Below, in pieces: positions 1-30,198 of a stretch of DNA of 34,606 nt (position 1 is its first letter; every line of letters starts with the position of its first letter). The DNA comes from a virus. Made by a program: the position numbers and the translations under genes. Where the stretch lies: IMG/VR virus record IMGVR_UViG_3300017779_000056, positions 1-34,606 of that record, one strand, 5' to 3'. The notes below the pieces were generated by a model that was not told the DNA's origin, did no database searches, and saw only the letters and a program-made list of their open reading frames with translations.

Positions 1-1
1 A

Positions 2-937
2 ATTGATGTTGACGAAAAATTAGATAAAATGTTAGCACTTGAAGGTCCATGGTTTCAATCCTCTTATAATATTTCTAAGCTTTTAATTGAAAAAGGTTAT
101 GTAAATAAAGGAATGAAACTTTATCGTGGTACTCAAGGTATGAGTAAAGTTTATGTTGGAAAAGACCTTGCATATAAAAACACAGGATATAAACCATTAA
201 AAGATGATAAATGGAATCCTGGAGATATATGGGCAGTGGTAGATGGATTTAATCATAAAAAAGAATTAGATATTTCTAACATTACTTCTTATAATAAATC
301 TATTTTAAAAGAATTTGCAAATAGAAGATTAGTAGGTATTTCATTAAAAGGACCAGAAGTAAAATATCCACCTCCATTAAAAGAATATAATAATCAAGTA
401 CCACCTGATATTGATTTACACAAATATATGGGTTGTAAATTAGAATCCGGTAGAGGAACTTATTGGTCAGCTAAAGGTGGACAAATAATATTTGATACTG
501 GAATCCTTACAGTAAAAGATAATACTGCAGGTGGAACTATTAAAGCAGAAATTAAAGGTAAAAACGCAAGAGGCGGTGGAATATCTTGGGGACCAATGCA
601 GGATTATGTACAAAGAGAAACAAGAAAGAAATTACCAGACCATGCATCGGGTATTAGAAAAATGGCCAAAAATATTGCAGATGGTAAAGAACGAGATATA
701 AAAGTTTATTATACATTATTTAATCACTTTTATAATAATACATCGTACGAAGAATTTAAAGAAGAACTTAAGCAAAAAGATTGGACTTGGATATCAGCAA
801 AATTAGCACTGAATTATCTTTGTTATTACATTGATAAATCAGGCGGTAGAACAGCAAACGCATTAGTTACACAATTTGTAAACTATGCTGGCTCGAAAGG
901 AGCCGAAAGTGCTGTCTATGTGAAAGCTGGTAAATAA
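2..937 (+). CDS. Conserved phage virion-associated protein, 5' end outside window
   Basis: The reading frame is open to the left edge, so the start lies upstream; the first in-window ATG at 29 is probably internal. About 310 residues are visible. The sequence contains a W-N-P-G-D-I-W-A-V segment that I associate with large uncharacterised structural or internal proteins of marine T4-like phages, followed by a mixed alpha/beta region and a Lys/Tyr-rich C-terminus. No catalytic motif is recognised. It overlaps the next gene by one base (TAATG), indicating translational coupling in the late virion operon. Function unknown; a head or internal protein is inference from context. Confidence 0.75.
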   Translation: MDVDEKLDKMLALEGPWFQSSYNISKLLIEKGYVNKGMKLYRGTQGMSKVYVGKDLAYKNTGYKPLKDDKWNPGDIWAVVDGFNHKKELDISNITSYNKSILKEFANRRLVGISLKGPEVKYPPPLKEYNNQVPPDIDLHKYMGCKLESGRGTYWSAKGGQIIFDTGILTVKDNTAGGTIKAEIKGKNARGGGISWGPMQDYVQRETRKKLPDHASGIRKMAKNIADGKERDIKVYYTLFNHFYNNTSYEEFKEELKQKDWTWISAKLALNYLCYYIDKSGGRTANALVTQFVNYAGSKGAESAVYVKAGK

Positions 938-1542
938 TGAAATATTTGATATTGGCTTCGGGTCGTGATGGCTCTACACAATTACTTCATGCAATACATG
1001 AAAGATTAGAAAGCCAAAATATGGCTGAACCATATCAAAAGGTAAGTGAACCATATAACTATGATTTAGGTGTAAAAACCGATTTTATGAGAAGAAACAT
1101 AGTTGTAAAATGTATAGTTAATAAGTTTCATATACCTGAAAGTTGGAGTCCAGAAGATGGCGAAGCAACCGATTTTTTTACAGGATTTGCTTTAAACTTT
1201 GATAAAACTATATTAATTAGAAGAAAAAACAAAGGTGAAAGATTATATTCTGCTTTACATGCACATAAACATGATACATGGGAAGGTGAATATAAACAGA
1301 AGCCAATAACATTAAACAGTAATAATTTAACTAATGAGATTGACGATTTTATAGATGCTGAAATTATAGCATATGAATTATCAAAATCGTTTTTAACAAT
1401 TTATATGGAAGATTTATATACAGAAGACAAAGAGTTATCACAGAAAACTTGGAACAAAATATTTCCAAAAGAACCTGTACAATTATTCGAAAGTATGTAT
1501 AATAAATACTTTGATATAAAACATAAAAAAGGTAAAGTATGA
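937..1542 (+). CDS. Sulfotransferase-like protein
   Basis: The protein has 201 residues. The N-terminus L-I-L-A-S-G-R-D-G-S-T-Q-L-L (residues 4-17) matches the phosphate-binding loop of PAPS-dependent sulfotransferases, which typically reads R-x-G-S-T-x-L directly after a first beta strand. A later I-L-I-R-R-K-N-K segment fits the 3'-phosphate binding region. By family these enzymes move a sulfuryl group from PAPS to a hydroxyl or amine; the substrate here is unknown. The start overlaps the preceding stop (TAATG) and the end overlaps the next start (ATGA), so it belongs to the virion operon. A kinase-like P-loop protein is the main alternative. Confidence 0.6.
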   Translation: MKYLILASGRDGSTQLLHAIHERLESQNMAEPYQKVSEPYNYDLGVKTDFMRRNIVVKCIVNKFHIPESWSPEDGEATDFFTGFALNFDKTILIRRKNKGERLYSALHAHKHDTWEGEYKQKPITLNSNNLTNEIDDFIDAEIIAYELSKSFLTIYMEDLYTEDKELSQKTWNKIFPKEPVQLFESMYNKYFDIKHKKGKV

Positions 1543-2774
1543 AGAAATTTACAAATTATCTAGCTGAGTCAAAAAATACACACATGACTCACATAGAAGA
1601 TTTAATCCTTGACGGAGGAGTCAAGGGAGCCCGCCAAGCTATCCAAGCGCTTAGGTCACTGAGGGATATGTTAGCAGGTAGCACGAAATCACCTGTAGAT
1701 GTTACTGTTAAATGGGACGGGGCTCCCGCCGTATTCGCAGGAATTGACCCATCAGATGGCCAGTTCTTTGTTGCTAAAAAAGGAATCTTTAATAAGAATC
1801 CTAAAATCTATAAGAATCATGATGATATCAAAGAAGATACATCTGGTGATTTACAGAAGAAACTTATATTAGCATTTGATAACTTAAAAGGATTAGGAAT
1901 CACAGGGGTTATCCAAGGTGACTTTATGTTTGAACGAAAAGACTTAAAGAAGGAAACAATTAATGGAATTCCGCATATCACTTTCCACCCTAATACTATT
2001 GTTTACGCTGTACCTACTAACAATGATGTCGCTAAAAGCATCATGGCAGCAAAGATTGGAATCGTGTGGCACACAACTTATTCAGGAGCAACATTTGAAA
2101 CAATGAGTGCTGAGTTTGGAAAAGAAATTGTACCAAAACTTAAAAAATCAAAGGATGTTTGGATGGTTGATGCTGTATTACCAGACCTTTCAGGCACAGC
2201 AACATTAACAGCAAACGACACAAAGGTATTATCAACTAAACTCTCAGCTGCTGGAAAAATGTTCCAAAAAATTCAAGGTAATGTATTAAAAGAAATAGAA
2301 TCAAATAAAGAATTAAATTTAATCATTAATGTATATAATAACCGTATGGTCAGACAGGGCCAAAGAATTAAAGATACTAAAAAACATGCTACTGGTTTAA
2401 TTATGTTTGTAAGAGACAGATATGCCAAAGAAATTGATAAGCGAAGTTCACAAAAAGGTAAAGATGTACAAATTAAGAAACGGGACGAATTAGTAAATTT
2501 CTTTGACAAAAGTAACCTTAAACAGTTACAGATGATATTTGATTTACAAAATTTAGTGGTAGATAGCAAATTAATTCTTATAAATAAACTAAACAAACTT
2601 TCAAAGATAGGAACGTTTGTTAAAACGACATCCGGATTTAAAGTAACCAACCCCGAAGGTTTTGTTGCTATAGATAGAATGGAAGGTGGAGCTGTTAAAT
2701 TAGTAGATAGATTAGAATTTTCTGCTAATAATTTCAGCAAAGATATTATAAAAGGTTGGGATAATCCTAACTAA
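1539..2774 (+). CDS. Ligase-like nucleotidyltransferase with capsid-targeting N-terminus
   Basis: The protein has 411 residues. Residues 1-11 (MKKFTNYLAES) resemble the T4 capsid-targeting peptide with an L-x-E prohead-protease site. V-K-W-D-G-A-P at 57-63 has the KxDG form of motif I of ATP-dependent DNA/RNA ligases and capping enzymes, making K58 the candidate adenylated lysine. An F-V-A-K-K-G block (about 77-82) and a G-V-I-Q-G-D-F block (about 126-132) follow at plausible motif spacing. Related proteins are common in marine T4-like phages as an uncharacterised DUF (I recall DUF6267). The start overlaps the sulfotransferase stop. The ligase-fold assignment rests on motifs and is not certain. 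Confidence 0.65.
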   Translation: MKKFTNYLAESKNTHMTHIEDLILDGGVKGARQAIQALRSLRDMLAGSTKSPVDVTVKWDGAPAVFAGIDPSDGQFFVAKKGIFNKNPKIYKNHDDIKEDTSGDLQKKLILAFDNLKGLGITGVIQGDFMFERKDLKKETINGIPHITFHPNTIVYAVPTNNDVAKSIMAAKIGIVWHTTYSGATFETMSAEFGKEIVPKLKKSKDVWMVDAVLPDLSGTATLTANDTKVLSTKLSAAGKMFQKIQGNVLKEIESNKELNLIINVYNNRMVRQGQRIKDTKKHATGLIMFVRDRYAKEIDKRSSQKGKDVQIKKRDELVNFFDKSNLKQLQMIFDLQNLVVDSKLILINKLNKLSKIGTFVKTTSGFKVTNPEGFVAIDRMEGGAVKLVDRLEFSANNFSKDIIKGWDNPN

Positions 2775-2790
2775 ATGGGAACCGAGGATA

Positions 2791-4158
2791 ATGGAAATAA
2801 AAAGTTTTAGCGATTATATCGTTGAATCCACAAAAGAAGTAACATTTGTTTTTGGTAGGTTTAATCCACCTACTATAGGACATGAAAAGTTATTTGACAC
2901 TTTGAAAAAATTGTCTAGAGGCGGTGCATATCGCATATACGCTTCAAAATCTCAAGACCCAAAAAAGAATCCACTAACATTTAAAGATAAAGTTAAGTTT
3001 ATGCGTAAGCTTTTCCCTAAACACGGAAGAGCAATTATGGCAGATGCTGATGTCAGAACAGTTTTAGACATTGCTGTTAAATTATACGACCAAGGATTTA
3101 CAAAAGTATCCATGGTTGCTGGCTCAGATAGAATTAAAGAGTTTGAAACACTATTAAATAAATATAATGGAGTATCTTCTCGACATGGCTTTTACCAATT
3201 TGAAGGTGTAATTAAAGTCTTATCTGCTGGGGAAAGAGACCCAGATGCAGAAGGCGTAAGTGGAATGTCAGCTTCAAAATTAAGATTATTTGCTTCTCAA
3301 GGCGATGTAACTAATTTTTCAAAAGGTATTCCATCAGCAAATACACAAGTTGTAAATGATTTATACCTTGCTATCAGAAAAGGTATGGGATTAAAGAAAG
3401 AATCTGTAAGGCGACATATTGAATTACCTACAGTATCTGAAACAAGAGAAGAATATGTTGAAGGTAATATCTTTAATGAAGGCGAACCAGTAAGAATTAA
3501 AGAAACAAAAGAACAAGGTATTATCTTACATAAAGGTAGTAATTACTTATTAGTATCTTTAAAAGAAGGTAGAAAAAGAGTTTGGTTAGAATCAGTAGAA
3601 TCTATGGCAGGTGAATTAGGAACCGATAAATTAACTAAATCATATTTAGATGCTACACCCTTTGCAAAAATCGTAAAAGACGAAAAAGAAAAAATGACTG
3701 TAAAGGATAAGATTAAAAAATCAGATTATTATAAAGGTTTAGCAAAGTCCACAAATAAAAAGAGACATGCACAATTTGCCAAGCAGTCTAAAATGGACGA
3801 TGATAACCCAGCAGCTTATAAACCAGCTCCTGGCGATAAGGACGCTAAAACAAAGCCGTCTAAACATACGAAGAAATATAAACAAATGTACGGAGAACAT
3901 TTTACATTTGAAGATTATATGATTGAAGATAAAGGTAGTGCTAAAAAGGCTCTACAGAAAAAGGCAGACAAATCAGGAATGCCTTATGCTATATTAAAGA
4001 AAGTTTTTGATAGAGGAGTTGCAGCATGGAGAACTGGCCATAAACCAGGGACTACTCCAATCCAATGGGGATTAGCAAGAGTTAATTCCTTCGTAACAAA
4101 ATCAAGTGGAACATGGGGTAAAGCAGATGCTGACCTTGCAAAACAAGTAAGAGGATAA
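2791..4158 (+). CDS. Cytidylyltransferase-fold protein with capsid-targeting N-terminus and DUF5824-like C-terminus
   Basis: The protein has 455 residues. It starts MEIKSFSDYIVES, a capsid-targeting-like peptide ending in I-V-E. G-R-F-N-P-P-T-I-G-H (22-31) is the nucleotide-binding HxGH-type signature of the adenylyl/cytidylyltransferase superfamily, and S-G-M-S-A-S-K-L-R (about 158-166) corresponds to the C-terminal ISSTxxR-like motif. A Lys-rich linker follows. The last 90 residues hold a conserved block (G-M-P-Y-A-I-L-K; A-W-R-T-G-H-K-P-G; F-V-T-K-S-S-G-T-W-G) that I recognise as DUF5824-like. Just before it lies FTFEDYMIED, a second capsid-targeting-like stretch, so this may be a fusion. 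Substrate unknown. Confidence 0.75.
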   Translation: MEIKSFSDYIVESTKEVTFVFGRFNPPTIGHEKLFDTLKKLSRGGAYRIYASKSQDPKKNPLTFKDKVKFMRKLFPKHGRAIMADADVRTVLDIAVKLYDQGFTKVSMVAGSDRIKEFETLLNKYNGVSSRHGFYQFEGVIKVLSAGERDPDAEGVSGMSASKLRLFASQGDVTNFSKGIPSANTQVVNDLYLAIRKGMGLKKESVRRHIELPTVSETREEYVEGNIFNEGEPVRIKETKEQGIILHKGSNYLLVSLKEGRKRVWLESVESMAGELGTDKLTKSYLDATPFAKIVKDEKEKMTVKDKIKKSDYYKGLAKSTNKKRHAQFAKQSKMDDDNPAAYKPAPGDKDAKTKPSKHTKKYKQMYGEHFTFEDYMIEDKGSAKKALQKKADKSGMPYAILKKVFDRGVAAWRTGHKPGTTPIQWGLARVNSFVTKSSGTWGKADADLAKQVRG

Positions 4159-4161
4159 AAA

Positions 4162-4968
4162 ATGAATTTTAAAGAATTAAGAGAAAAATATAGAAGCAAA
4201 TATCCAGCGTCTTTGGTATCAGCTGCTGTAAAAATCGCTATAGATATGGCTGGGAATATGACCGGTGCATATAAAAAAATCGAAAACATGAAGCGCGGAT
4301 TGGGCGATGACCCTATCGTAAAAGATGCTTTAAGAATGGCCAATGAATCTGTTGAAGAAGGAACAATGGCTATTGGTATTAAAGATAGAGACCCAAAGGA
4401 AAGAGCAAAAGCACAAGCACAACTGAAAGTATTGTTAAAGAAAATTGGTAATAAGAAAGTAGGTTCTAAAGAGGGTCAAGACTTTGATGATAAATTGGAT
4501 TACGACATATTGTCAGACGATGAATTAGCAGATGAATTTGCAAATCCAAAAAACAAAAATATGAAAGTCAAAGACTTATTAAAGAAACATTCAAAAAGAC
4601 TCAATGTTAATTTTGATGAATCTGTTGAAGAAGGTATGTCACCAGCTGACAAGAAGAAAAGACTTGAAATGATTAAAAAGGCTGTTGAAAAATTAAATGC
4701 TAAAAACGATGCAAAAGCAAAAGCTGATTTTCTTAAACAAATGAAAGATATGGTAGATGAAGAAGTATTAAACGAATTAAACTTTTCATACGCTTTCTTT
4801 GATAAAGCTGATTTAAACAGATATATGGTAAAAGCATTAAAGGTAAAAGGACTAACTGTTATTGATAGTGAAAAACAGGCAGGTGGACACTATACAGTTA
4901 GAGTTAAAGCTGATGATAAAAAAATCATTGCGAAATCTAATTCACTTGCATTACAGGCAATGTCATAA
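4162..4968 (+). CDS. Putative internal head protein with repeated ESVEEG linkers
   Basis: The protein has 268 residues and is highly charged. It starts MNFKELREK, which fits the capsid-targeting pattern (L-R-E). The acidic linker E-S-V-E-E-G occurs twice, near residues 63 and 154, and D-E-E-V-L-N-E near 195. These linkers separate Lys/Ala-rich helical segments from a compact C-terminal domain (about 200-268) of alternating strands and helices. The layout suggests a protein cut into pieces by the prohead protease, as T4 core proteins are, but that is inference. Three bases separate it from the upstream gene and it overlaps the next start by one base. No enzymatic motif is seen. Confidence 0.65.
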   Translation: MNFKELREKYRSKYPASLVSAAVKIAIDMAGNMTGAYKKIENMKRGLGDDPIVKDALRMANESVEEGTMAIGIKDRDPKERAKAQAQLKVLLKKIGNKKVGSKEGQDFDDKLDYDILSDDELADEFANPKNKNMKVKDLLKKHSKRLNVNFDESVEEGMSPADKKKRLEMIKKAVEKLNAKNDAKAKADFLKQMKDMVDEEVLNELNFSYAFFDKADLNRYMVKALKVKGLTVIDSEKQAGGHYTVRVKADDKKIIAKSNSLALQAMS

Positions 4969-5789
4969 TGAAAAATTTTAAACAACTCAGAAACGACCTA
5001 TCAGAAAATTATAATCAAGACTTAACTCTTGCTACTAAGAATATAGCAAGGCTTTCTAATAAAGAAAGCGGTCAAGATAAGAAAGACTATCAGGCAGTAT
5101 CTAGAGCTCTTGCTCAAGGTAACCTCGGTGCAGTTAAGAAAGTAATTAAAGGTATTTCAACAAAAGAAATACAAGCTGATATATTAAACGTCCTCGTAGG
5201 TTATAACGACCTAATTGCTAAAATGTATCCTAAAGCAATGTCAGGTGGAAAATTTAAAAGTGGCATGACCGTAGATAAAATGGTTAAAGAAGATGCAGAA
5301 ACAATTGAAGAAGTAATGTCGCTCGATAGATTAAAAAAGAAGTTTAAAAGAGACATTGATAACTATAATAAAAGAAATAAAGACTTGCCAAAAAACGTAG
5401 AGAAGGCACTTCAAATGTTTGCTATTAAAAATGGTGAAATTAAAACTGATGACCCAGAAGAATTTGACGATTGGTTAATGCAAAATATTGAAGAAGCTAC
5501 TATTGAAGAAGCAAGAATGCCTATGTACAAACAAACTAAGTTTGAAGGTAAAGAGTTCGATAGAAAGAAAGAAATTAAAAGTTTAAAGAACATGCAAAAA
5601 GCACTTCATAAACTCGCAAAGATGCAAGATGATATGCAATACACTGCAGAAACGGGTGGAACTAGTAAAGACGGAAATCCAAATGCAATTTATCAAGCTC
5701 TAGTAGAATGTGAATGGGCACTATTTGCATACATGGGTGGTATCGAAAGAGGTAAATGGGACGGTACTATAGACATGGATAGAGATTAA
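4968..5789 (+). CDS. Putative internal head protein
   Basis: The protein has 273 residues. It starts MKNFKQLRNDLSEN, a capsid-targeting-like peptide with an L-S-E site. The rest is Lys/Glu-rich and mostly helical, with acidic breaks (A-E-T-I-E-E-V; I-E-E-A-T-I-E-E-A) near residues 110 and 175 that resemble the linkers of the upstream protein and could be protease sites. The C-terminal 60 residues form a more hydrophobic conserved-looking domain (ALVECEWALFAYMGG). It is coupled to the upstream gene by a TAATG overlap. Not recognised beyond this. Confidence 0.6.
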   Translation: MKNFKQLRNDLSENYNQDLTLATKNIARLSNKESGQDKKDYQAVSRALAQGNLGAVKKVIKGISTKEIQADILNVLVGYNDLIAKMYPKAMSGGKFKSGMTVDKMVKEDAETIEEVMSLDRLKKKFKRDIDNYNKRNKDLPKNVEKALQMFAIKNGEIKTDDPEEFDDWLMQNIEEATIEEARMPMYKQTKFEGKEFDRKKEIKSLKNMQKALHKLAKMQDDMQYTAETGGTSKDGNPNAIYQALVECEWALFAYMGGIERGKWDGTIDMDRD

Positions 5790-5790
5790 A

Positions 5791-6120
5791 TTGAAAGACT
5801 TTAAGGAATTTAGAGAAAATAAAGGACCATGCTGGGACGGCTATGTACAAGTTGGTACAAAGATGAAGAACGGCAAAAAGGTTCCTAATTGTGTTCCTAA
5901 AGAAGAAGTAGAAGAAGCACCTTTGGTAATGAACGACCTTGATATGGCATCTACACTATTCAAAGATATCAAAGATAAAATGATGAAAAACAATAGGCAA
6001 AAGAATAGAGAGAAAAACTGGCCAATGCTTCAGCAACTTGCTTCAATGGCTGGGTTTGGTATAACTAAAAAGGGTCAATCCAAGGAAAAATCGTTCAGAT
6101 ACGATTTAAAGAAAAAGTAA
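5791..6120 (+). CDS. Small capsid-targeting-type protein, TTG start
   Basis: The protein has 109 residues. The TTG start at 5791 lies one base after the previous stop and gives the N-terminus (L)KDFKEFREN, matching the capsid-targeting pattern of its neighbours; no in-frame ATG occurs before this motif is passed. Residues 12-36 contain the G-P-C-W-D-G-Y-x-Q-V-G-x-K block followed by V-P-N-C-V-P, a short motif that recurs in many phage head-associated proteins. An acidic E-E-V-E-E-A linker precedes a basic C-terminal half. Function unknown. Confidence 0.6.
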   Translation: MKDFKEFRENKGPCWDGYVQVGTKMKNGKKVPNCVPKEEVEEAPLVMNDLDMASTLFKDIKDKMMKNNRQKNREKNWPMLQQLASMAGFGITKKGQSKEKSFRYDLKKK

Positions 6121-6473
6121 TGAAAACATTTAAAGTATTTACAGTAGAGTCAGTCGAAAAAGCAAAAAAGGCTATACAAAAAGCAAAGTATTACGATAAG
6201 GGTTGGAGCCCTGATTTCGATAAAGGTGGCTCAGCAAAAGGCGATTGGGCGAAAGCGCATATTGATTTATACAATACAAAAGGCGGTGAAAAAATCATCG
6301 ATAAAATTGCTAAGAAACATAAAGAATTAAAAGTTGTTAAAATTAGTCGTGAAGAAATTCAAGTTATTGGAAGCTCAAAAGCTATAGCAGACCTGAAAAA
6401 AGAATACGGCCAAAATCAAAAGAAAGCCAAAGATAGCAATTGGGAAAAAAGAGTTTGGAGTGCCAAAATATGA
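6120..6473 (+). CDS. Small capsid-targeting-type basic protein
   Basis: The protein has 117 residues and is strongly basic. It starts MKTFKVFTVES, which fits the capsid-targeting pattern with V-E before the presumed cut. It then has Lys-rich helices and a short beta-like segment (KVVKISREEIQVIGSSKAI) that resembles domain ends in neighbouring proteins. The start overlaps the upstream stop by one base, and the end overlaps the next ATG by four bases (ATGA). No known motif. Confidence 0.55.
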   Translation: MKTFKVFTVESVEKAKKAIQKAKYYDKGWSPDFDKGGSAKGDWAKAHIDLYNTKGGEKIIDKIAKKHKELKVVKISREEIQVIGSSKAIADLKKEYGQNQKKAKDSNWEKRVWSAKI

Positions 6474-6754
6474 TGGGTAGTAGACCATATATCGGATTTA
6501 AAGCTTTTTATGCAATGGCAACTGAAGAAGATTTACCTAATGAAGGTAAGAACAAAGGTGAATCTTGGGAAGATGGATTTAAAAGAAGAGTTGTAAAAAC
6601 AACAAAACCTGACCATAAAGAAGATGGTTATAATTGGAGAATTAAAGGTAAGGATAGAGAAGAAGTTACCATTAAGCTATATAAAAAGAAACCCGATTAT
6701 AAAGAATTTGTAAAACAAATGAAAAGAGTAGCAGGACACGAGTTCGGTGGATAA
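6470..6754 (+). CDS. Small basic hypothetical virion protein
   Basis: The product has 94 residues from the ATG at 6470, which overlaps the upstream TGA. An in-frame ATG at 6440 exists, but the coupled ATGATG at 6470 fits the operon better. The N-terminus (MMGSRPYIGFKAFYAMATEE) is a looser version of the capsid-targeting pattern, with an aromatic-rich amphipathic helix followed by A-T-E-E. The remainder is Lys-rich. It overlaps the next gene by eight bases. Confidence 0.5.
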   Translation: MMGSRPYIGFKAFYAMATEEDLPNEGKNKGESWEDGFKRRVVKTTKPDHKEDGYNWRIKGKDREEVTIKLYKKKPDYKEFVKQMKRVAGHEFGG

Positions 6755-7115
6755 ATTTTTAAATTACATCGAAGAAAGATTTGGAATCTATGAGGGATTA
6801 ACAGTTCCTTTAGAACAACCTATGATTGAGGGACCAGAGCCAGAGTTAAATAAACCAAGCAGAAGCTCAGGACCAAAGAAATATGTTGTATATGTTAAAA
6901 ATCCTAAAACAGGAAACGTAAAGAAAATTAATTTTGGCGACGAAAAAGGAGGGTTAACCTCTAAAATAAACGATAGAGACGCGGCAAGAAATTTCGCATC
7001 TCGTCATAACTGCGATACTAAAACGGATAAGCTATCACCAGGATACTGGTCATGTAGATTACCAAAGTATGCAAAGGATTTAGGGCTAAAAGGCGGTGGA
7101 AACTATTTTTGGTAA
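6747..7115 (+). CDS. Capsid-targeting-type hypothetical protein, GTG start
   Basis: The protein has 122 residues with a GTG start at 6747 inside the end of the upstream gene. The N-terminus (V)DKFLNYIEER fits the capsid-targeting pattern with I-E-E, which supports this start. A Pro-rich linker leads to a compact domain (about 45-120) containing R-N-F-A-S-R-H-N-C-D and G-Y-W-S-C-R-L-P-K-Y-A-K, a C/W-bearing block I associate with proteins of marine T4-like phages. Function unknown. Confidence 0.55.
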   Translation: MDKFLNYIEERFGIYEGLTVPLEQPMIEGPEPELNKPSRSSGPKKYVVYVKNPKTGNVKKINFGDEKGGLTSKINDRDAARNFASRHNCDTKTDKLSPGYWSCRLPKYAKDLGLKGGGNYFW

Positions 7116-7389
7116 AAAACCATATTGGGAAGAAGGTGATATAAGAACCTTTGACCTACAAAGTGATGATGCTGAATATGTTTGGCATCGTGATTTTGAA
7201 GATAGAGAAATCGAAGTTCTGGAAGGTGAAGGATGGCAATTTCAAATAGAAAATTGTCTCCCATGGTTGTTAAAGAAAGGAATGGTATTTGATATTAAAA
7301 AATTCGAATATCATAGATTAATAAAGGGGGTTACCCCATTAAAATGTAGGGTTTATTTATATGGCAACGGCAGCAGAGCAACGAACTGA
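7096..7389 (+). CDS. Small conserved beta-rich (cupin-like) protein, GTG start
   Basis: The product has 97 residues from a GTG at 7096, overlapping the upstream gene by 20 bases. The sequence alternates strands and turns: VWHRDFEDREIEVLEGEGW, then MVFDIKKFEYHRLIKG and a closing C-R-V-Y-L-Y-G strand. The two His-bearing strands and Gly turns suggest a small double-stranded beta-helix, but the fold is inference. The 3' end overlaps the next gene by 29 bases. Confidence 0.5.
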   Translation: METIFGKKPYWEEGDIRTFDLQSDDAEYVWHRDFEDREIEVLEGEGWQFQIENCLPWLLKKGMVFDIKKFEYHRLIKGVTPLKCRVYLYGNGSRATN

Positions 7390-7660
7390 ACAAGCTAATC
7401 GATTAGATAGAATCGAAAAGAAAATTGATATAATGCAAGATGCGATTGTAGCCTTAGCTCGAGCTGAGGAAAAAATCACCACGTTGACCGATTTTGGTAA
7501 ACAACAAGGAGAACAAATCCTAGCTCTTATAAATAGAGTTGATAGGTTAGAAGACTTAGTTAGAAGTAATGCTAGCACAGTCTCAGTAATTAACAAAATA
7601 TTCTGGGTAGTCATTGCGGCGGCAGCCACTGGGATTACAGGAATGCTTTTTATGCATTAA
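7361..7660 (+). CDS. Coiled-coil protein with C-terminal membrane anchor
   Basis: The protein has 99 residues. Residues 8-75 carry heptad-like spacing (R-L-D-R-I-E-K-K-I-D-I-M) typical of a coiled coil; residues 77-97 are a hydrophobic segment (IFWVVIAAAATGITGMLFM) ending two residues before the stop. Small proteins of this design in T4-like phages are often unassigned and sometimes proposed as holin or membrane-adaptor proteins; nothing here decides that. The ATG is preceded by AGGG. Confidence 0.65.
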   Translation: MATAAEQRTEQANRLDRIEKKIDIMQDAIVALARAEEKITTLTDFGKQQGEQILALINRVDRLEDLVRSNASTVSVINKIFWVVIAAAATGITGMLFMH

Positions 7661-7675
7661 TAGGAGAATTTAAAA

Positions 7676-8461
7676 ATGGCAAAATTGCATGATAAAGAAA
7701 CTCAAAGCATTGCTGCTACAGTAAGTGATGTACTTGAGGGTAAAGTAAAGAAAGAGGAAGTTAAATATCCTCACATGATGTATAATCCAAAAAATGGTGA
7801 AGGCGTTGAAGTCAAAGATAAGGCTGAACACGAAAAATACCAGAAAATGGGTTGGGGTCATGATAAACCAAAAAATGAATCACCTGAAGAGCCAAAAGCT
7901 CCAGACGGAAAAAATGGTCCACAGACTGGTGAAAAAGACTTTAAAGGTAAACATAAGGTCAAAAAATCTGGTAAAACAGTAGACGGCTCTGATGTTAAAG
8001 AAGAAGTGGAGGAAGTAACTATCACTTTAGACGAAGCAAAAAAGCCTGGTAAGGGTAAGGAAAAAGCTGACATAGATTGGATTGGAAGTAATGCTGATGC
8101 TAAGGCAGCAGAAAAAAAATTCAAAGTTAAAATTAAACTAAAAGGTCGTGGAACAGCTGACGTTACCGGAGAAAAGAAAAATATTGTAGCTATGTTATCA
8201 GATAACGATACATACGGTATGGATATGGACGATATCGCAGATATCTTTCCAGAACTATTTGAAGCTAAAGTTGCAGAAACTGCACCTGAAGTAGAAGTAG
8301 ATGAATTATCAGATAAACAAAAGAGATACCAAGACTTCTTTAAAAAGGCTTTAAAGAAATTTGGTGTAGCGTCACCGGCAGAACTCGATAAAGAGAAAAG
8401 AAAAGAATTCTTTGATTACGTCGATAAAAACTATGATGCAGGCGAAGGAGAAAGCGACTAA
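7676..8461 (+). CDS. Putative prohead core/internal virion protein
   Basis: The protein has 261 residues, is acidic and highly charged, and starts after a clear AGGAG at 7662-7666. It has three parts: a Y-P-H-M-M-Y-N-P-K-N-G motif near residue 30 ending in M-G-W-G-H; a small domain at about 125-200 (IDWIGSNADAKAAEKKF; D-I-F-P-E-L-F-E); and a C-terminal segment K-Q-K-R-Y-Q-D-F-F-K-K-A-L-K-K-F-G with F-F-D-Y-V-D-K-N-Y-D near the end. Similar C-terminal segments recur in head-associated proteins of T4-like marine phages. E-E-V-E-E-V and A-P-E-V-E-V-D linkers may be protease sites. The stop overlaps the next start. Confidence 0.6.
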   Translation: MAKLHDKETQSIAATVSDVLEGKVKKEEVKYPHMMYNPKNGEGVEVKDKAEHEKYQKMGWGHDKPKNESPEEPKAPDGKNGPQTGEKDFKGKHKVKKSGKTVDGSDVKEEVEEVTITLDEAKKPGKGKEKADIDWIGSNADAKAAEKKFKVKIKLKGRGTADVTGEKKNIVAMLSDNDTYGMDMDDIADIFPELFEAKVAETAPEVEVDELSDKQKRYQDFFKKALKKFGVASPAELDKEKRKEFFDYVDKNYDAGEGESD

Positions 8462-8829
8462 TGAAAGATTTTTTTCAATTAAGACAAGAAATTAAAGTAA
8501 ACGAAGATGTCAGAGACATGAAAAACTTTGACGATAGAAATCGTAAAGGTTTTGAAGCCAGAGCATACATTGAAGTAAAAAAAGGTAATACTAATAATAA
8601 ATTCGATGATAACTTTGGATTCGACAAATCTGAAATGGAATATATGGATAAACTGATTAGTAAAATCAAGGGAATGCATGTATCTAGCTTTGATGGAGGT
8701 TCTTCAGGACCAGCATCTTTAGAATTCTATGGTAAAAAAGCATCTTTAGATAAATTTGCTAAAGATAGAAAAGTACAACAGATTGCTAAAAAATATAAGT
8801 CAAAGGTAGAAGTATTCCTTAACAAATAG
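8461..8829 (+). CDS. Capsid-targeting-type hypothetical protein
   Basis: The protein has 122 residues and starts MKDFFQLRQEIKVNED, matching the capsid-targeting pattern. The domain after it (EARAYIEVKKGN, then F-D-G-G-S-S-G-P-A-S-L-E-F-Y-G) looks like a small alpha/beta fold and resembles the ends of the proteins at 4162 and 6120, which also finish with a strand-helix unit (K-K-A-S-L-D-K-F-A-K). These may be repeated copies of one small domain. It is coupled to the upstream gene by TAATG. Confidence 0.55.
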   Translation: MKDFFQLRQEIKVNEDVRDMKNFDDRNRKGFEARAYIEVKKGNTNNKFDDNFGFDKSEMEYMDKLISKIKGMHVSSFDGGSSGPASLEFYGKKASLDKFAKDRKVQQIAKKYKSKVEVFLNK

Positions 8830-8830
8830 T

Positions 8831-8846
8831 ATAGCCGAAAGGTTAT
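8831..8846 (+). other. Small GAAA-loop hairpin in front of a late promoter
   Basis: ATAGCC-GAAA-GGTTAT can form a 6-bp stem (one G-U pair) closed by a GNRA-type tetraloop. It starts one base after the stop of the upstream gene and overlaps the first three bases of the late promoter. No T-run follows, so it is not a standard rho-independent terminator; it may mark the 3' end of the upstream message. Confidence 0.3.
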
Positions 8847-8851
8847 AAATA
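8844..8851 (+). promoter_or_regulatory. T4-type late promoter TATAAATA
   Basis: This is an exact match to the T4 late consensus. It is followed by five bases and then ATG at 8857. With the T4 geometry (TATAAATA at about -13 to -6) the ATG falls at +1. Confidence 0.7.
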
Positions 8852-8856
8852 ACTAT

Positions 8857-9228
8857 ATGATGAAAGTATTTGATAAGCTGAATAGAAAAAACTTTAAGCT
8901 CTATGCATCTGCGAATTATAATAATCCAGAATGTATAGATGTTGAAGAATTTAAAGAAGATGTAAATCGCTTTAAGTATATTAAACGATTACTGAGCAGA
9001 TATGAAGCTCATGGCGATTTACAAGAACGATTAATATTAAATCACTTAATTGTGATTTTTAATGTTTTCGGTATAGATGCTGCTAGCAAGATGTTATGGT
9101 ATAAAGTGAGGGCAGAACACTGGACTTATATAAAACCATTTTTAGTCTACTTGCATTATTTACCTGAAGACGATAGAGTAGAAATTGCTATGGACCCTTA
9201 CATTGTTGAGGTACTAAGGAAACTATAA
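8857..9228 (+). CDS. Conserved T4-like phage protein of unknown function
   Basis: The protein has 123 residues and starts exactly at the expected start point of the late promoter at 8844. The segment YNNPECIDVEEF, then RFKYIKRLLSRY, then R-L-I-L-N-H-L-I-V-I-F-N-V-F-G is very characteristic of a small protein widespread in marine T4-like phages, where it is annotated only as hypothetical. It is predicted mostly helical, with no membrane segment or catalytic motif. It overlaps the next gene by one base. Confidence 0.75.
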   Translation: MMKVFDKLNRKNFKLYASANYNNPECIDVEEFKEDVNRFKYIKRLLSRYEAHGDLQERLILNHLIVIFNVFGIDAASKMLWYKVRAEHWTYIKPFLVYLHYLPEDDRVEIAMDPYIVEVLRKL

Positions 9229-9812
9229 TGGGATTAATATCAAGAGCTGGAGATATATTTTATGCACTTAGATTCCTAAGATTATTAACAAAGTCTTGGG
9301 ATGATATGGATGCATTTAAATACGGCATTATTGACAATAATGGTAAAGTATTGCGAAAAGCTAGTACTTTAAAAAATCCTGTAGAAAAAAGTTCATATAC
9401 AATTTTTCATAGGTTAGTATTTAATCTAAAAAGATTATTAAATAAGTTACCTATAGGTAAAACAAAACTTGCATCATATGCAACGGCTTTATTTTTAGTA
9501 AAAGAACATAGTGGAATGACCGAAAGCGAAATGGAAGATGTTCTTAATAAAGTTTTAGAAGATTGGGAAGTAGATACAGTGAATGAGCAATGGTTCCAAA
9601 AGGATGGTAAAATTAATCCAGGTAAATATACCTTAAAGGAAGATGTTATATCATTAAATACAGGAGAACCTATTGCTAGAGCTAAAGATATTGTAGAAGT
9701 AAAAGAAGCAATATCACCAGTCGGCAGTATATTTGGTACAGATATTTTCGAAGTAAAACATCTTAAAACGAACCAAAGTATATATATTAATAGCGGGGAA
9801 ATAACTAGATGA
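9228..9812 (+). CDS. Conserved T4-like phage protein of unknown function
   Basis: The protein has 194 residues. The N-terminus (ISRAGDIFYALRFLRLLTK) and central block (FHRLVFNLKRLLNKLP; ATALFLVKEHSGM) are familiar from a protein conserved in marine T4-like phages and always next to the preceding gene. The C-terminal third is beta-rich. It is helical and amphipathic rather than clearly membrane-spanning. A structural or assembly role is likely from its place under a late promoter. It overlaps the next gene by four bases. Confidence 0.7.
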   Translation: MGLISRAGDIFYALRFLRLLTKSWDDMDAFKYGIIDNNGKVLRKASTLKNPVEKSSYTIFHRLVFNLKRLLNKLPIGKTKLASYATALFLVKEHSGMTESEMEDVLNKVLEDWEVDTVNEQWFQKDGKINPGKYTLKEDVISLNTGEPIARAKDIVEVKEAISPVGSIFGTDIFEVKHLKTNQSIYINSGEITR

Positions 9813-10054
9813 AATCATTTAAAGAAGTATGGGAAATGGCAGCCAACTCAGTAGGTGCTGGTGGCGTTTCAATGCCAGCAGATGTTGTTTTCGATAAAAA
9901 GAAAAAGAAGCAAGAAAAAAGAATATATGACGGTAGAACTAAAGAAGGTCGTAAATTCGTAGAAAGAATGCTTGCAAGAAGAACAGCTAAAGAAAATAAA
10001 CAGAAGTTGGTACAAGCTCAAAAGAATGCGGAAACTATAAAGACGAAAGAGTAA
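9809..10054 (+). CDS. Small basic capsid-targeting-type protein
   Basis: The protein has 81 residues and starts MKSFKEVWEMA. It continues with G-A-G-G-V-S-M-P-A-D-V-V-F-D and a run of lysines, a combination I recognise from small proteins of T4-like marine phages. The rest is an Arg/Lys-rich helix. It may be a head-internal or DNA-binding protein; the N-terminal pattern lacks a clean L/I-x-E site, so processing is uncertain. Confidence 0.6.
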   Translation: MKSFKEVWEMAANSVGAGGVSMPADVVFDKKKKKQEKRIYDGRTKEGRKFVERMLARRTAKENKQKLVQAQKNAETIKTKE

Positions 10055-22366: not shown

Positions 22367-22975
22367 ATGAAAAAGTTTAACGAGTTTTTGGCAGAACGGG
22401 CTGGTAAAGGCCTGACCATCTTTGACATTGATGATACAATGTTCGTATCAAAAGCTCGTGTTAGAGTTATTAATAAAAAATCTAAAAAAATAAAAGAACT
22501 AACTCCACAAGAATATAATTCTTACAAGCTCGGAAGAGATGAAGAATGGGATTATGGCGAATTTAAATCGTCAAAAATATTTTATCAGACTGCAACGCCT
22601 ATTGCACGAATGATTCAGAAAGCGAAAGCAATAATTAGTAATGCAACTAAAAAAGGTTCAAAAGTAATTATAGTCACAGCAAGAAGCGACATGGACGATA
22701 AAAAATTATTTCTAAAAACTTTTGAAGCTCATGGTATATCAATGAAAAATGTGTATGTCGAAAGAGCTGGAAATATGGGTGGTAAAAATAGCGCAGCTAA
22801 TAAATCAATCATATTTAAAAAGTATTTAGAAACAGGCGAATATGCAAGGATTAGATTATTCGACGACCACAAGGAAAACTTACAAGCATTATTAGACTTA
22901 AAAAGAGAATTTCCCCAGGTTGAATTTTTTGCATACTTAGCCGATTTGAAAGGTAGTATAAAGCGAGTAAAATAG
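22367..22975 (+). CDS. HAD-superfamily phosphatase with capsid-targeting N-terminus
   Basis: The protein has 202 residues. MKKFNEFLAER (1-11) is one of the best matches to the T4 capsid-targeting pattern, with L-A-E before the presumed cut. D20-I-D22-D-T24 is HAD motif I, V-I-I-V-T-A-R is motif II, and R-L-F-D-D-H-K is motif IV. The enzyme core therefore begins directly after the targeting peptide. HAD enzymes of this type hydrolyse phosphate from nucleotides, sugars or nucleic-acid ends. It sits alone behind a late promoter, away from the main virion block. Confidence 0.8.
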   Translation: MKKFNEFLAERAGKGLTIFDIDDTMFVSKARVRVINKKSKKIKELTPQEYNSYKLGRDEEWDYGEFKSSKIFYQTATPIARMIQKAKAIISNATKKGSKVIIVTARSDMDDKKLFLKTFEAHGISMKNVYVERAGNMGGKNSAANKSIIFKKYLETGEYARIRLFDDHKENLQALLDLKREFPQVEFFAYLADLKGSIKRVK

Positions 22976-26674: not shown

Positions 26675-26940
26675 TGGATGTAGGACAATTAGTTTCAGAT
26701 TACGGCTTTCCGGTAGTCATGGCCGTAGGTCTTGGCTATTTCATATACTACATTTGGTGGTTTATAGGAGAGCATATTGAACCACAATTACAGGAAATGC
26801 ATATCGCATTAATTCGTGTAATTGACCAGACTCGTATGCTCGACCAAGATTTAATTAGATTAAAAGAAAAGGTAAATGTAGTATTAGAATATAAGGCACA
26901 GCAAAAGTTAAAAGCAGAGGGAAAAGATGAAGAAGAATAA
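26674..26940 (+). CDS. Small membrane protein, possible holin, second of a pair
   Basis: The protein has 88 residues. D9-Y-G-F-P13 is followed by a span at about 12-31 (VVMAVGLGYFIYYIWWFI), then an amphipathic helix (LIRVIDQTRMLDQDLIRLKE) and a charged C-terminus. Small proteins with this helix occur in marine T4-like phages. It overlaps the upstream gene by one base and csgF by 14 bases. Confidence 0.6.
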   Translation: MDVGQLVSDYGFPVVMAVGLGYFIYYIWWFIGEHIEPQLQEMHIALIRVIDQTRMLDQDLIRLKEKVNVVLEYKAQQKLKAEGKDEEE

Positions 26941-27442
26941 ATGTAAAGATAACCTAGAAATTGCCAGTTTGGTAGCTATTTTTATGGTTAGTATTATAGC
27001 AGTTTCTCCAAATGTACAAGCAGATGTAGTTCACAAGTTTAAAAATCCATCATTTAGTGGAGTAGGAACTGGAGCACATTATTTAACAGTGGAAAACCAA
27101 GAGCATGCTCGTAAGAAGGCAATAAAAGATGCAATGGAAGCTGCACGAAAAGCAGCCGAAAGAGATGCAGAAAATACTACGATGGCAAAGTTTATAAGAA
27201 ACTTAGAGAGTAGAATATATGCTCAGATGTCTAAACAGTTAGTTGAATCGATGTTTAGTAACGATGGTTCAGTTAGATTTGGTTCATTTGTTTTAGAAGG
27301 CAATACAGTTACTTATGAAGTTATTACAAATGAAGATGGTACAGAGTATATTAAAATGACCATTGTTGATGAGAATGGGTCATCTACTACAATTGAAATA
27401 CCAATTGGTACAGGCAATTTTGCACAAGATTCTGATGGATAA
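26927..27442 (+). CDS. csgF: Curli assembly protein CsgF homologue
   Basis: The protein has 171 residues. A signal peptide (about 1-32, ending V-Q-A) is followed by V-H-K-F-K-N-P-S-F-S-G, equivalent to the conserved F-R-N-P-N-F-G-G of E. coli CsgF that inserts into the CsgG pore. A helical middle (about 55-105) is longer than in E. coli; the C-terminal strands (VRFGSFVLEGNTVTYEVIT, then T-I-E-I-P) match the CsgF end. CsgF links curlin nucleation to the CsgG channel at the cell surface. It lies four bases before csgG. Confidence 0.88.
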   Translation: MKKNKCKDNLEIASLVAIFMVSIIAVSPNVQADVVHKFKNPSFSGVGTGAHYLTVENQEHARKKAIKDAMEAARKAAERDAENTTMAKFIRNLESRIYAQMSKQLVESMFSNDGSVRFGSFVLEGNTVTYEVITNEDGTEYIKMTIVDENGSSTTIEIPIGTGNFAQDSDG

Positions 27443-27445
27443 ATT

Positions 27446-28402
27446 ATGGAAGCAGCTTTAGCATTATTATTAGTATTAGGATTTTTAAATGAGTCAGCAA
27501 CTCCTGTTTGGTCTGATAAACCTGAGGAATGCAAAGAAATTACATTTGATGACCCTTATATTGGTCCTAACACAGTATCAAGATTAGAAAAAACATTAAG
27601 ACATTCTTATATTTGTGTTGAAGAAGCTGAAGCAATTAGATTACCTTCATACATCGAGTTATTAGATTTACCTCCAGCAAAAGATAGACCTGTAGTTGCT
27701 GTATATGGATTTAAAGATTTAACAGGTCAAAGAAAATCAAGAGAAGGTATAGCAGACTTCTCAACAGCAGTTTCACAAGGTGGAACTGAGTTATTAATAG
27801 ATGCTCTCAAAACAGCAGGAGATGGAAGCTGGTTTAGAGTAGTAGAAAGACAAGGCATTGATAATCTGGTAAGAGAAAGACAGATTATCAGGAGTGCCAG
27901 AAACGATTTCGCAGGCCCGGAAGGCGCGAAAGCATTGAATCCACTTCTATTCGCTGGTATGATAATGGAAGGTGGAATAATTGGTTATGATACTAATGTA
28001 CAAACTGGTGGTCGAGGCGCACGATTATTAGGTATAGGCAAAAGTAAGCGATATCAACAAGATGTCGTCACTGTTTCGGTTAGAGCAGTTTCTGTTCTGA
28101 CTGGTGAAGTATTATTGAATGTCCAAGCTAAGAAGACGATTCTTAGTTACGGTGGAAGTGGTGATATTTTTCGATTCGTCGATAATAGTACCACTCTAGT
28201 AGAATATGAGGACGGTGTGGGAAATAATGAGTCCGTGACTTACGCGACACGAACAGCTATTGAGGCTGCCGTGTTGGAACTAATATACCAAGGGCATGAT
28301 AGAGGCCTTTGGGTTATAGAGGATGGACATCGTCACCCCCACCAAGTCGGTGGTAAAAACGATAAACATCCTATAAAAGAGGAAAATAACGAAAATGAAT
28401 AA
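27446..28402 (+). CDS. csgG: Curli secretion channel CsgG homologue
   Basis: The protein has 318 residues; E. coli CsgG has 277. Matches are strong across A-V-Y-G-F-K-D-L-T-G-Q, F-S-T-A-V-S-Q-G, V-V-E-R-Q-G-I-D-N-L, R-Q-I-I-R-S-A, G-G-I-I-G-Y-D-T-N, K-K-T-I-L-S-Y, F-R-F-V-D and D-R-G-L-W. It forms the outer-membrane nonameric pore. The N-terminus is odd: a hydrophobic start (residues 2-13) but no lipobox Cys, and about 50 extra residues with C29 and C57 before the CsgG core. In the constriction loop F-S-T-A-V keeps the Phe, but the preceding Asn is Asp. It overlaps curlin 1 by eight bases. Confidence 0.93.
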   Translation: MEAALALLLVLGFLNESATPVWSDKPEECKEITFDDPYIGPNTVSRLEKTLRHSYICVEEAEAIRLPSYIELLDLPPAKDRPVVAVYGFKDLTGQRKSREGIADFSTAVSQGGTELLIDALKTAGDGSWFRVVERQGIDNLVRERQIIRSARNDFAGPEGAKALNPLLFAGMIMEGGIIGYDTNVQTGGRGARLLGIGKSKRYQQDVVTVSVRAVSVLTGEVLLNVQAKKTILSYGGSGDIFRFVDNSTTLVEYEDGVGNNESVTYATRTAIEAAVLELIYQGHDRGLWVIEDGHRHPHQVGGKNDKHPIKEENNENE

Positions 28403-29135
28403 ACTATATAGTATAGTCCTAGCTGGGCTATTAGTGTCGACAGGATTCGTTTTTGCACAAGCCACTGATGATAATGAAATCAAAATCACACAATCTGGTG
28501 ACACACTAGAATTGTACATCGACCAAATTGGTTTCGGTAACAAAATTGGAGGAGACGACTTTTCAAGTGGTTCTACTGCAATGAGTATTATCGGTTCAAG
28601 TTTAGAGTTTGATTTAGATTTTGCTGGTAACCAAAACATTTTATTTGGTCCTGTTAAAGCAGATAGTTCAACCTATAAGCTTGATTTTACAGGTGATTCA
28701 AATGAAATTGATTGGAATATCGGATATAGCGGTAGCGCAGATGATTCTGACTATAATTTTGATGTAACTGGAGACAGTAACACATTTGATATAGACCAGG
28801 GTTATGCAGCGAGTGCAGAAAGATTAGATGCCGATTTAATTTTAATAGGTAATTCAAACGTATTTGATATAGATTTTGAATCTGACGATAACGTTTGGAA
28901 TTTTGAAGTTACTGGAGACAGTAATAATATAAACACATTACAGAATGATGGTTCACAAAACCTAGAGTTTACTTTAGTAGGCGATTCTGCAGATGTTGAT
29001 ATTAATCAGATAAGTGGTACTTGTGCAGGACAGACAACTGGATGTGCAACACCAAATGCTAATATCGTATTAGACGTAACTTCAGACAATGCAACTATTA
29101 CCATTACTCAAAAAGACAGCGGTAACGACAGCTAG
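28395..29135 (+). CDS. Curlin-like fibre subunit 1
   Basis: The protein has 246 residues. A signal peptide (about 1-22, …V-F-A-Q-A) is followed by D-D-N-E-I-K-I-T-Q-S-G and Y-I-D-Q-I-G-F-G-N-K, then loosely repeated units of about 20-30 residues built around T-G-D-S-N-x-(I/F)-D-I-D. This is curlin-type logic (Gly-Asn turns, alternating polar strands, Gln/Asp ladders) with more Asp than CsgA. A C-A-G-Q-T-T-G-C pair sits near the end. It is the expected cargo of the CsgG/CsgF genes directly upstream. The 3' end overlaps the FecR signal-peptide codons by 47 bases. Confidence 0.75.
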   Translation: MNKLYSIVLAGLLVSTGFVFAQATDDNEIKITQSGDTLELYIDQIGFGNKIGGDDFSSGSTAMSIIGSSLEFDLDFAGNQNILFGPVKADSSTYKLDFTGDSNEIDWNIGYSGSADDSDYNFDVTGDSNTFDIDQGYAASAERLDADLILIGNSNVFDIDFESDDNVWNFEVTGDSNNINTLQNDGSQNLEFTLVGDSADVDINQISGTCAGQTTGCATPNANIVLDVTSDNATITITQKDSGNDS

Positions 29136-30189
29136 TCTATTAATCATCGGTGGGACTAGTTTAAGTGCTAGTCCCATTGGAGATGTCAGGGAATCCACTG
29201 GCGTCACCGCAATTCTACGCGATAAAGAACAAATTCAAACTACAGAAATAGAATTATATGACCAGGCTGAAACAGCCAAAGGTCGTATGTTAATTGAGTT
29301 TTTAGATAAAGCTGAATTACAATTAAAAGAACATTCAAAAGTTTTTATAGACGAAATATATTACGACCCTAACCCATCATTATCTAAAATGTCAATGAGA
29401 ATGGTTAGTGGAACTGCACGATTTGCTTCAGGTAAATTGGGTTTAGTTAATAATGCGAATATAGCAATATCAACACCTACAGCTACAATAGCAGTTAGAG
29501 GAACAGATTTTACAACAACAATCGATGAGCTTGGACGTTCATTGGTGATATTACTTCCAGATGATAAAGGTAATCCATCGGGAGTTATAGAAGTTTCAAA
29601 TGCTTCAGGAACAGTTGTACTAGATGAAGCTTATGCTGCAACAATGGTTTATACTGTAGACACACCACCAACTTCAACTACTATCATTAATGGTATTACA
29701 CCAGCTTTAATTGATAATATGTTTATTGTAAATCCACCGCAAGAAGTAAAAGATAGAATACAAGAAGAATTACAAGATGAACAAAATGAAGACCAAGGTT
29801 TATTAGATATCGACTTTTTAGAATTTACAGAATTAGAAGAAGACGCATTGGAAGAAGATGAGTTAAAAGAGTTCTCAGAATTAGACGTTGATGAATTAGA
29901 TGTAGAGTTTTTATTAGACTTTTTATCAATCGTAGATTCATCTGACCTATTTGATACATTAGGAGAGTTTGATATTAAAGGTGCAATGAGAGGATTAAAC
30001 GATGAATCTCAATATAATGTATTTTTAAGAGATGGCGATTTAGTATTATATCGTAATGTAAATGGAGCAATAGAATTAACATTTGCAGCAGGTGGTTCAT
30101 TTACATTAGAAACAATAACACCAGGTTGGGAAGGAATAATAACAGGTAATGATGGAGAAGACATCATAGTAAGGATTAACCAAAATTAA
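29089..30189 (+). CDS. Secreted FecR-domain protein
   Basis: The product has 366 residues from the ATG at 29089 within the end of the curlin gene. Residues 1-28 are a signal peptide (…S-L-S-A-S). The FecR domain (about 35-150) is marked by E-S-T-G-V-T-A-I-L-R, L-K-E-H-S-K-V, M-V-S-G-T-A-R-F-A-S-G-K and S-T-P-T-A-T-I-A-V-R-G-T-D-F. A Glu/Asp-rich stretch (about 230-300) and a small beta domain follow. There is no membrane span or N-terminal anti-sigma helix, so this is the free secreted form rather than classical FecR. I recall such proteins occurring next to CHASE2 cyclases in bacteria, as here. Confidence 0.85.
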   Translation: MQLLPLLKKTAVTTASLLIIGGTSLSASPIGDVRESTGVTAILRDKEQIQTTEIELYDQAETAKGRMLIEFLDKAELQLKEHSKVFIDEIYYDPNPSLSKMSMRMVSGTARFASGKLGLVNNANIAISTPTATIAVRGTDFTTTIDELGRSLVILLPDDKGNPSGVIEVSNASGTVVLDEAYAATMVYTVDTPPTSTTIINGITPALIDNMFIVNPPQEVKDRIQEELQDEQNEDQGLLDIDFLEFTELEEDALEEDELKEFSELDVDELDVEFLLDFLSIVDSSDLFDTLGEFDIKGAMRGLNDESQYNVFLRDGDLVLYRNVNGAIELTFAAGGSFTLETITPGWEGIITGNDGEDIIVRINQN

Positions 30190-30190
30190 T

Positions 30191-30198
30191 TATAAATA
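30191..30198 (+). promoter_or_regulatory. T4-type late promoter in front of curlin 2 and the cyclase
   Basis: An exact TATAAATA one base after the FecR stop, five bases before the ATG at 30204. It gives the second half of the module its own late start. Confidence 0.7.

Follow-up and report, generated by a model that had tools for sequence, protein, structure and literature searches.

A block of genes near the left end of a 34.6-kb IMG/VR virus record (IMGVR_UViG_3300017779_000056, positions 1 to 34,606; the whole stretch is called the window here) is very probably the cargo island of a T4-type marine myophage resembling the Kyanoviridae. The proteins of this island carry capsid targeting sequences (CTSs), would be cut in the head by the prohead protease gp21, and would be delivered with the DNA. 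By analogy with T4, as the prohead assembles the aromatic residues of the tag would dock each cargo protein on the gp22 scaffold core, the phage gp21 would then cut after the Glu of an (L/I)-x-E site and free the mature protein within the head, and the cargo would enter the cell together with the DNA. In T4, CTS residues 4 and 7 function in targeting and residues 8 and 10 in processing, and gp21 follows the (L/I)xE rule (PMC9026906). The 62 called genes of the window are dense and lie on a single strand. Judged by the gene for a DUF6267 protein at position 1539, the nearest annotated relatives are Phage C48C1, the Melnitz methylophages, Stenotrophomonas phage DLP_6, HTVC008M, and marine cyanophages, and all annotated records examined except T4 and RaK2 are classified in the Kyanoviridae.

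The initial annotation listed ten T4-like N-termini, and translation of the open reading frames (ORFs, named here by their first position) recovers each of them in place, with TTG as the start codon of ORF 5791 and GTG as that of ORF 6747. A strict pattern, ^M.{1,5}[FY]..[FYLM][ILV].E, was derived from T4 IPII/IPIII (MKTYQEFIAE/A; slashes mark cleavage or predicted cleavage sites) and fixed before the N-termini of cyanophage S-CREM2 were inspected. It matches four of the 62 window genes (1539, 2791, 6747, and 22367), against 0.15 expected from internal positions (P = 1.8e-5) and 0.08 expected from shuffled N-termini, where four or more matches arose in 0 of 20,000 shuffles. Six of 88 genes in a portion of the C48C1 genome match the same pattern (P = 2.5e-8), and a stretch of T4 scanned as a positive control yields IPII and IPIII. 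The tag therefore occurs well above chance (~0.1 matches expected in the window) in both the window and this relative. A wider pattern additionally matches 4162, 5791, and 9809, giving seven in total versus 0.9 expected from shuffling (P = 5e-5), and falls on six of the 16 genes in the block versus one of the 46 outside it (P = 8e-4). Because this pattern was devised post hoc, with the sequences already seen, the main claim is made to rest on the strict one. ORFs 4968, 6120, and 8461 have the F4 and position-7 signature and match neither pattern because the spacing of the E differs or the site is not L/I-x-E. Aromatic residues are found at about positions 4 and 7 in 1539, 2791 (shifted by 2), 5791, 6120, 6747, and 22367, and position 7 is L or V in 4162 (shifted by 1), 4968, 8461, and 9809. 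The CTS-type sequence MKKFTNYLAESKNT combines F4, Y7, and E10.

CTS-like starts are also clustered. Across 80 related loci, families with such starts concentrate near the DUF6267 gene: they make up 45 of the 114 families in the interval from -2 to +8 kb around it and 5 of the 121 elsewhere (P = 6e-12). The initial annotation described an array running from 1539 to 10054. A tagged cluster is indeed present there, but it is not continuous: the N-termini of ORFs 6470, 7096, 7361, 7676, 8857, and 9228 within it have no tag, nor does that of ORF 937, and the tagged ORF 22367 lies 12 kb away. The accompanying count of about ten tagged proteins is good only to within a few because six of the ten tags are weaker.

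The cleavage site is the best conserved part of the tag. Close relatives of the DUF6267 protein have 35 distinct N-termini; P3 is L or I and P1 is E in all 35, and P1' is A or S in 34, in variants that include insertions (MKKFTNYLAE/S, MKGFKNQLAE/A, MIRFNSYKPLTE/A, MRSFKNYVPLTE/S). A wider DUF6267 set has [LIV]xE right before the conserved KNTHM block in 69 of 70 distinct N-termini; over all 105, a gp21-type site (L/I/V-x-E) closes the tag in all but one despite substitutions and indels. The ORF 2791 family has [LIV]xE in 31 of 31 distinct N-termini, and its Syn9 and S-RIM14 orthologues start MKKFSAFLSE/A and MKKFSTFISE/A. In the ORF 22367 family (79 relatives), all 22 distinct N-termini are CTS-like, one with a short LRE site. 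The gp21 site in its (L/I)-x-E form is thus kept in the 1539 and 22367 families and, with L/I/V allowed, in the 2791 family. The tag is detachable as well: untagged DUF6267 homologues from S-SZBM1 (S-SZBM1_141, starting MAKNTHLEHLED) and S-PM2 (MATQNKHLEHLED) begin at about the point where cleavage would leave the tagged ones, and the RaK2 nucleotidyltransferase starts untagged with MNKCIITFGR.

A search for gp21 in the 34.6-kb window found none because the window is a fragment. The gene is present (E = 4e-44) in a contig whose DUF6267 protein is identical, and gp21, gp22, and gp23 adjoin one another in another, near-identical contig (88.8 kb, 104 called genes), whose gp23 has an ISE/T site near residue 58. 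In this second contig the DUF6267 protein and the nucleotidyltransferase are the only strict tag matches, with none in the ~100 other called genes. The proposal that the tags are T4-like CTSs cleaved by gp21 thus gains support from cleavage-site conservation and from these head genes, and also from the virion proteomes of relatives described below (the 2791 orthologue and the cysteine module of 5791).

To judge from the sequences compared, cargo modules fuse and split across relatives, with CTS-like sequences at some of the junctions. A single 650-aa protein of Melnitz combines the nucleotidyltransferase and the DUF5824 region with the 5791 module and the 6747 domain (50% identity to that of the window, 2e-32); in the window these parts are spread over three ORFs, each with a CTS-like start. 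ORF 2791 itself contains an internal CTS-like junction, FTFEDYMIE/DKG (3901..3927, plus strand), at which relatives keep a CTS-like stretch. Some of them read MKSFSQSLEE/A there, Met included, and in C48C1 the piece downstream of the junction is a gene of its own starting MITFKKYLEE. Because the Pfam DUF5824 match extends across this junction, the internal sequence could also be a plain insertion. Elsewhere, the DUF6267 protein of locus L210 is preceded in the same chain by a domain like that of ORF 7096, with CTS-like SIKSFSSYVEISE/A in between, and four loci (L024, L026, L034, and L089) join the 4968 and 4162 domains in one protein. Fused proteins with internal CTS junctions can be read as cargo that gp21 could split. 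One profile, phrog_455, unites DUF6267 and the nucleotidyltransferase.

Proteins with this tag coincide with virion proteins of relatives. Mass spectrometry (MS) of S-CREM2 virions detected 52 proteins, 24 of them structural and three listed as 'regulatory' (PMC10665884). Only three of the 219 annotated S-CREM2 proteins match the strict pattern: gp6 (SAM hydrolase, MKDFDSFLEE), gp14 (APH-like kinase, MKRFDAFLTE), and gp154 (cytidylyltransferase, MKNFSSFLTE/A). These are exactly the three 'regulatory' virion proteins, for which the chance with a fixed set is 1 in C(219,3), or 1 in about 1.7 million (~6e-7). The detected proteins gp13 (MKDLHSFLTE/Q) and gp136 (MQTFSMFFSE/D) are near matches, and gp12 (L008:7704-10313), a virion-detected Cas9-like nuclease, has a CTS-like RFASFMAE/A at residues 18-25; either its true start may lie downstream of the annotated one, or this may be an internal tag. 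Both gp154 and S-SZBM1_140 are virion-detected orthologues of ORF 2791. Main-text statements, which are what is used here of the S-SM1, S-SCSM1, and Syn9 proteomes, report a nucleotidyltransferase orthologous to 2791 by gene cluster (T4-GC190) in S-SM1 virions (PMC3037559) and an NMNAT-like protein (ORF91) in S-SCSM1 virions (PMC9602691). The short cysteine module of ORF 5791 recurs in S-SZBM1_139 (2.7e-7) and S-CREM2 gp160 (5e-5), both virion-detected. Two small, adjacent S-SZBM1 genes near head/neck genes, S-SZBM1_191 and 192 (L266:22311-23125), start MKSFKSFLSE/S and MKTFKQYITE/A and are absent from the MS report; from these starts their products are predicted to be cargo.

The tagged proteins might instead belong to the virion or its core, bind the scaffold through their N-terminus, be cleaved, and serve a structural role like that of T4 IPIII without being delivered as effectors. 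We consider this unlikely. IPIII does influence head assembly (PMC9026906), and several of the small cargoes have no recognisable enzyme domain, but the strict-tagged S-CREM2 virion proteins are enzymes (SAM hydrolase, APH-like kinase, and nucleotidyltransferase), and the cargo set varies and is modular among relatives.

Several observations weigh against delivered cargo. Enrichment of the tag in S-CREM2 is modest when measured against all 52 detected proteins (Fisher P = 0.013), and a position-weight score separates detected non-structural from undetected proteins weakly (area under the curve, AUC, 0.63; with an AUC of 0.40, the 24 structural proteins do not outscore the undetected ones). For S-SZBM1, in which the scan covered 150 of the 178 kb, the short MS protein list includes only one of three strict matches, SSZBM1_140. 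The module-adjacent virion proteins S-SZBM1_136, S-SZBM1_139, and S-CREM2 gp160 have no clear CTS, and the standard L/I-x-E is missing from the tags of 6120, 8461, and 9809. The evidence for packaging comes from the virions of relatives, and for the proteins of the window phage itself packaging is predicted. Finally, the S-CREM2 authors allow that virion enzymes are possible contaminants (PMC10665884), and the S-SCSM1 authors likewise raise contamination (PMC9602691). It is nevertheless very improbable that the detections reflect abundant infected-cell proteins and that the motif is coincidental, given the exact three-of-219 correspondence in S-CREM2 and the recurrence of the nucleotidyltransferase in several independent virion proteomes. 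It is scarcely credible that the shared start merely reflects translation initiation or base composition in an AT-rich genome (ATGAAAAANTTT) and plays no part in targeting: the window is ~33% GC and MKKF/MKNF is A/T-rich, but the start is missing from other genes of the lineage and from genes outside the block, and a nucleotide effect leaves unexplained both the P1 E, P3 L/I, and P1' A/S of DUF6267 relatives and the CTS-like sequences at internal fusion junctions.

The initial annotation called at least three of the proteins enzyme-like, and the DUF6267 protein, a HIGH-motif nucleotidyltransferase, and a HAD phosphatase candidate fit that description. The tagged ORFs of the window are all on the plus strand. 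The 411-aa DUF6267 protein (1539..2774; PF19782, E = 2e-102) begins with the CTS MKKFTNYLAE (1539..1568), and the N-termini of relatives predict a cut before S11. Its family has matches in 460 phage records. Conserved blocks occur in the order KWDG, QGD, EGFV, and KLVDR, and K58-W-D-G, E373-G374-V376, and K387 are invariant in 31 sequences. A structural model (predicted local distance difference test score, pLDDT, 83; residues 1-15 below 50) was compared by VIA-align, in which RNA/DNA ligases make up all of the best 50 matches listed. The best has Z = 7.8 and a root-mean-square deviation of 4.0 over 180 residues, and T4 Rnl1 and Rnl2 score Z = 7.4 and 7.2 over 174-179 residues. A helical insert of about 130 residues (~225-354) precedes motif IV. 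Foldseek returned nothing below 0.001 for this protein and, because the Z scores are also middling (<8), it is called a candidate ligase-like nucleotidyltransferase, probably of the RNA-ligase type.

ORF 2791 (2791..4158) encodes a member of the 'cytidyltransferase/NMNAT-like' phage family with a C-terminal DUF5824 region (phrog_3041, 7e-98; phrog_395, 7e-66; DUF5824, 1e-17; Pfam CTP_transf_like below cut-off). Its (H/T)xGH motif (NPPTIGH; FGRFNPPTIGHEKLF) and profile matches assign it to the HIGH-superfamily nucleotidyltransferases. The CTS is MEIKSFSDYIVE (2791..2826), with a cut predicted before S13 from relatives' N-termini. In S-PM2 p139 (L264:880-2052), the annotated nucleotidyltransferase start seems too early, and a CTS-like MKRFTNTYVKE occurs ~60 residues in. 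ORF 22367 (22367..22975; CTS MKKFNEFLAE/R) is a candidate HAD-superfamily phosphatase, nearest to the polynucleotide-kinase phosphatase and acid-phosphatase families (phrog_415, polynucleotide kinase, 6.5e-11; Acid_phosphat_B, 1.2e-5, below the Pfam cut-off). PDB sequence searches with the DUF6267, nucleotidyltransferase, and HAD proteins gave nothing significant.

These predicted activities invite the guess that, early in infection, the cargo probably modulates or mends the nucleic acid or nucleotide pools of the host, and one hypothesis is that its enzymes act together to repair RNA or nucleotides in the face of host defence. More specifically, and doubtfully, the virion could carry a ready-made repair and nucleotide kit, consisting of an RNA-ligase-type DUF6267 protein, an end-processing phosphatase of the HAD type, and a HIGH-type nucleotidyltransferase. 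Their CTSs would load them, in part as proteins whose internal CTS junctions gp21 would split inside the capsid, and after injection they would reverse host defences aimed at RNA or NAD ahead of all phage gene expression.

Tag support differs among the ORFs. It is strong for 1539, 2791, 6747, 22367, and a protein cut by the left window edge, of which the C-terminal ~311 residues of 460 are encoded at 1..937 (phrog_1462). In a locus with an identical DUF6267 protein, this 460-aa protein starts MKSLKSFVINE/AVPM (L012:66-1448 and L013), and its variable tag ends in [IL]xE/[AG] in 14 of 16 aligned relatives and in E/KL in the other two (L019 and L021). An assignment of this protein by eye as an ADP-ribosyltransferase or nuclease was dropped; its model (pLDDT 83, predicted template modelling score 0.49) has no convincing structural match. 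ORF 6747 (6747..7115; MDKFLNYIEE/R, a strict match) has relatives starting MHNFLEHIEERF. Support is moderate for three cargo candidates: 4162 (4162..4968), with the short CTS MNFKELRE/K and relatives starting MKFKELREK, MKTFKEIQE/A, and MKSFKEIQE/A; 4968 (4968..5789), with a CTS-like N-terminus MKNFKQLRNDLSE/N and LSE further on; and 5791 (5791..6120), with MKDFKEFRE/N and the cysteine module GPCW..VGTK.KNGK..PNC. It is weak for three more: 6120 (6120..6473; MKTFKVFTVE/S), nearest to T4 IPI MKTFKEFTS, in which TVE is a non-strict gp21 site; 8461 (8461..8829; MKDFFQLRQE, a weak site), a related domain of which is fused in locus L023; and 9809 (9809..10054; MKSFKEVWE/M), with relatives starting MKTFKDMWED. 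The proteins of 22367 and 4968 had no match in the phage records searched, and BLAST gave no support for the small cargo proteins as paralogues of each other.

Other genes in and around these loci also stand out. A sulfotransferase-like protein without a tag (937-1542) sits between two tagged cargo genes, and CsgG-like, curlin-repeat, FecR, and adenylate-cyclase genes at 26927-32867 follow the order of the Melnitz curli cluster. Melnitz gene 2 (L001:82-1131) encodes a RimK-like ATP-grasp protein (PF08443, 3e-33) that starts with a strict CTS, MTQKFSQFITE/E, and is possibly a packaged peptide or ribosomal-protein ligase. In HTVC008M, a P-loop kinase-like protein (GGPGSGKT; L007:9278-9940) encoded between DUF6267 and the nucleotidyltransferase starts MIPFILKE/G, a degenerate CTS-like end.

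The tag probably predicts what marine T4-like phages inject into bacteria, and so provides a simple sequence rule for forecasting their head-carried proteins. It also offers a cause for the presence in cyanophage virions of enzymes (SAM hydrolase, kinase, and nucleotidyltransferase) that others could not tell from contamination, and it makes the composition of injected cargo testable in an abundant marine virus group. DUF6267 gains a likely enzyme class, and we propose that cargo genes fuse into proteins bearing internal targeting and cleavage sites.

The closest known system is that of T4 IPI, IPII, and IPIII, which have 10-19 residue N-terminal propeptides with aromatics at 4 and 7, an (L/I)xE/A cut, and the gp21/gp22 system (PMC9026906). 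The window starts MKKFTNYLAE and MKKFNEFLAE align with MKTYQEFIAE, and MKTFKVFT aligns with IPI MKTFKEFT. Unlike the T4 proteins, the island comprises some ten tagged ORFs, of which several look like enzymes, near ribonucleotide reductase genes (NrdA/NrdB, 11.9-15.5 kb), and it includes a shorter tag variant (F-K-E-[IL]-x-E) and CTS-like sequences within fused proteins; profile searches of the window proteins revealed no family match between their mature parts and the T4 proteins. T4 Alt is likewise a head-packaged, injected enzyme processed by gp21 (PMC9026906), but its ADP-ribosyltransferase activity was not recognised in any window protein. T4 Rnl1 and Rnl2 share with DUF6267 the KxDG, EGxV-type, and C-terminal lysine motifs in the same order, whereas the ~130-residue helical insert and N-terminal CTS set DUF6267 apart, with no significant sequence or Foldseek match between them. 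In the giant phages SPN3US and phiKZ, a diverged gp21-like protease also cuts head proteins after Glu (PMC9026906), although lineage, cleavage motifs, and propeptides differ. The cyanophage virion cytidyltransferase or NMNAT-like proteins (S-SM1 T4-GC190, S-CREM2 gp154, S-SZBM1_140, and S-SCSM1 ORF91) are orthologues or homologues of 2791 in purified virions, but the parts of those reports used here present them as metabolic or as possible contaminants and mention no targeting sequence, and the window's version differs in its fused DUF5824 region. A search with the phrase 'capsid targeting sequence', judged by titles and partial in coverage, found no literature linking CTSs to marine phages. 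CTS-driven packaging in T4 is textbook knowledge and nucleotidyltransferases in cyanophage virions are published; what is new is the same class of mechanism with a larger, modular enzyme cargo, together with a sequence rule for which any purified virion from this group can serve as a test.

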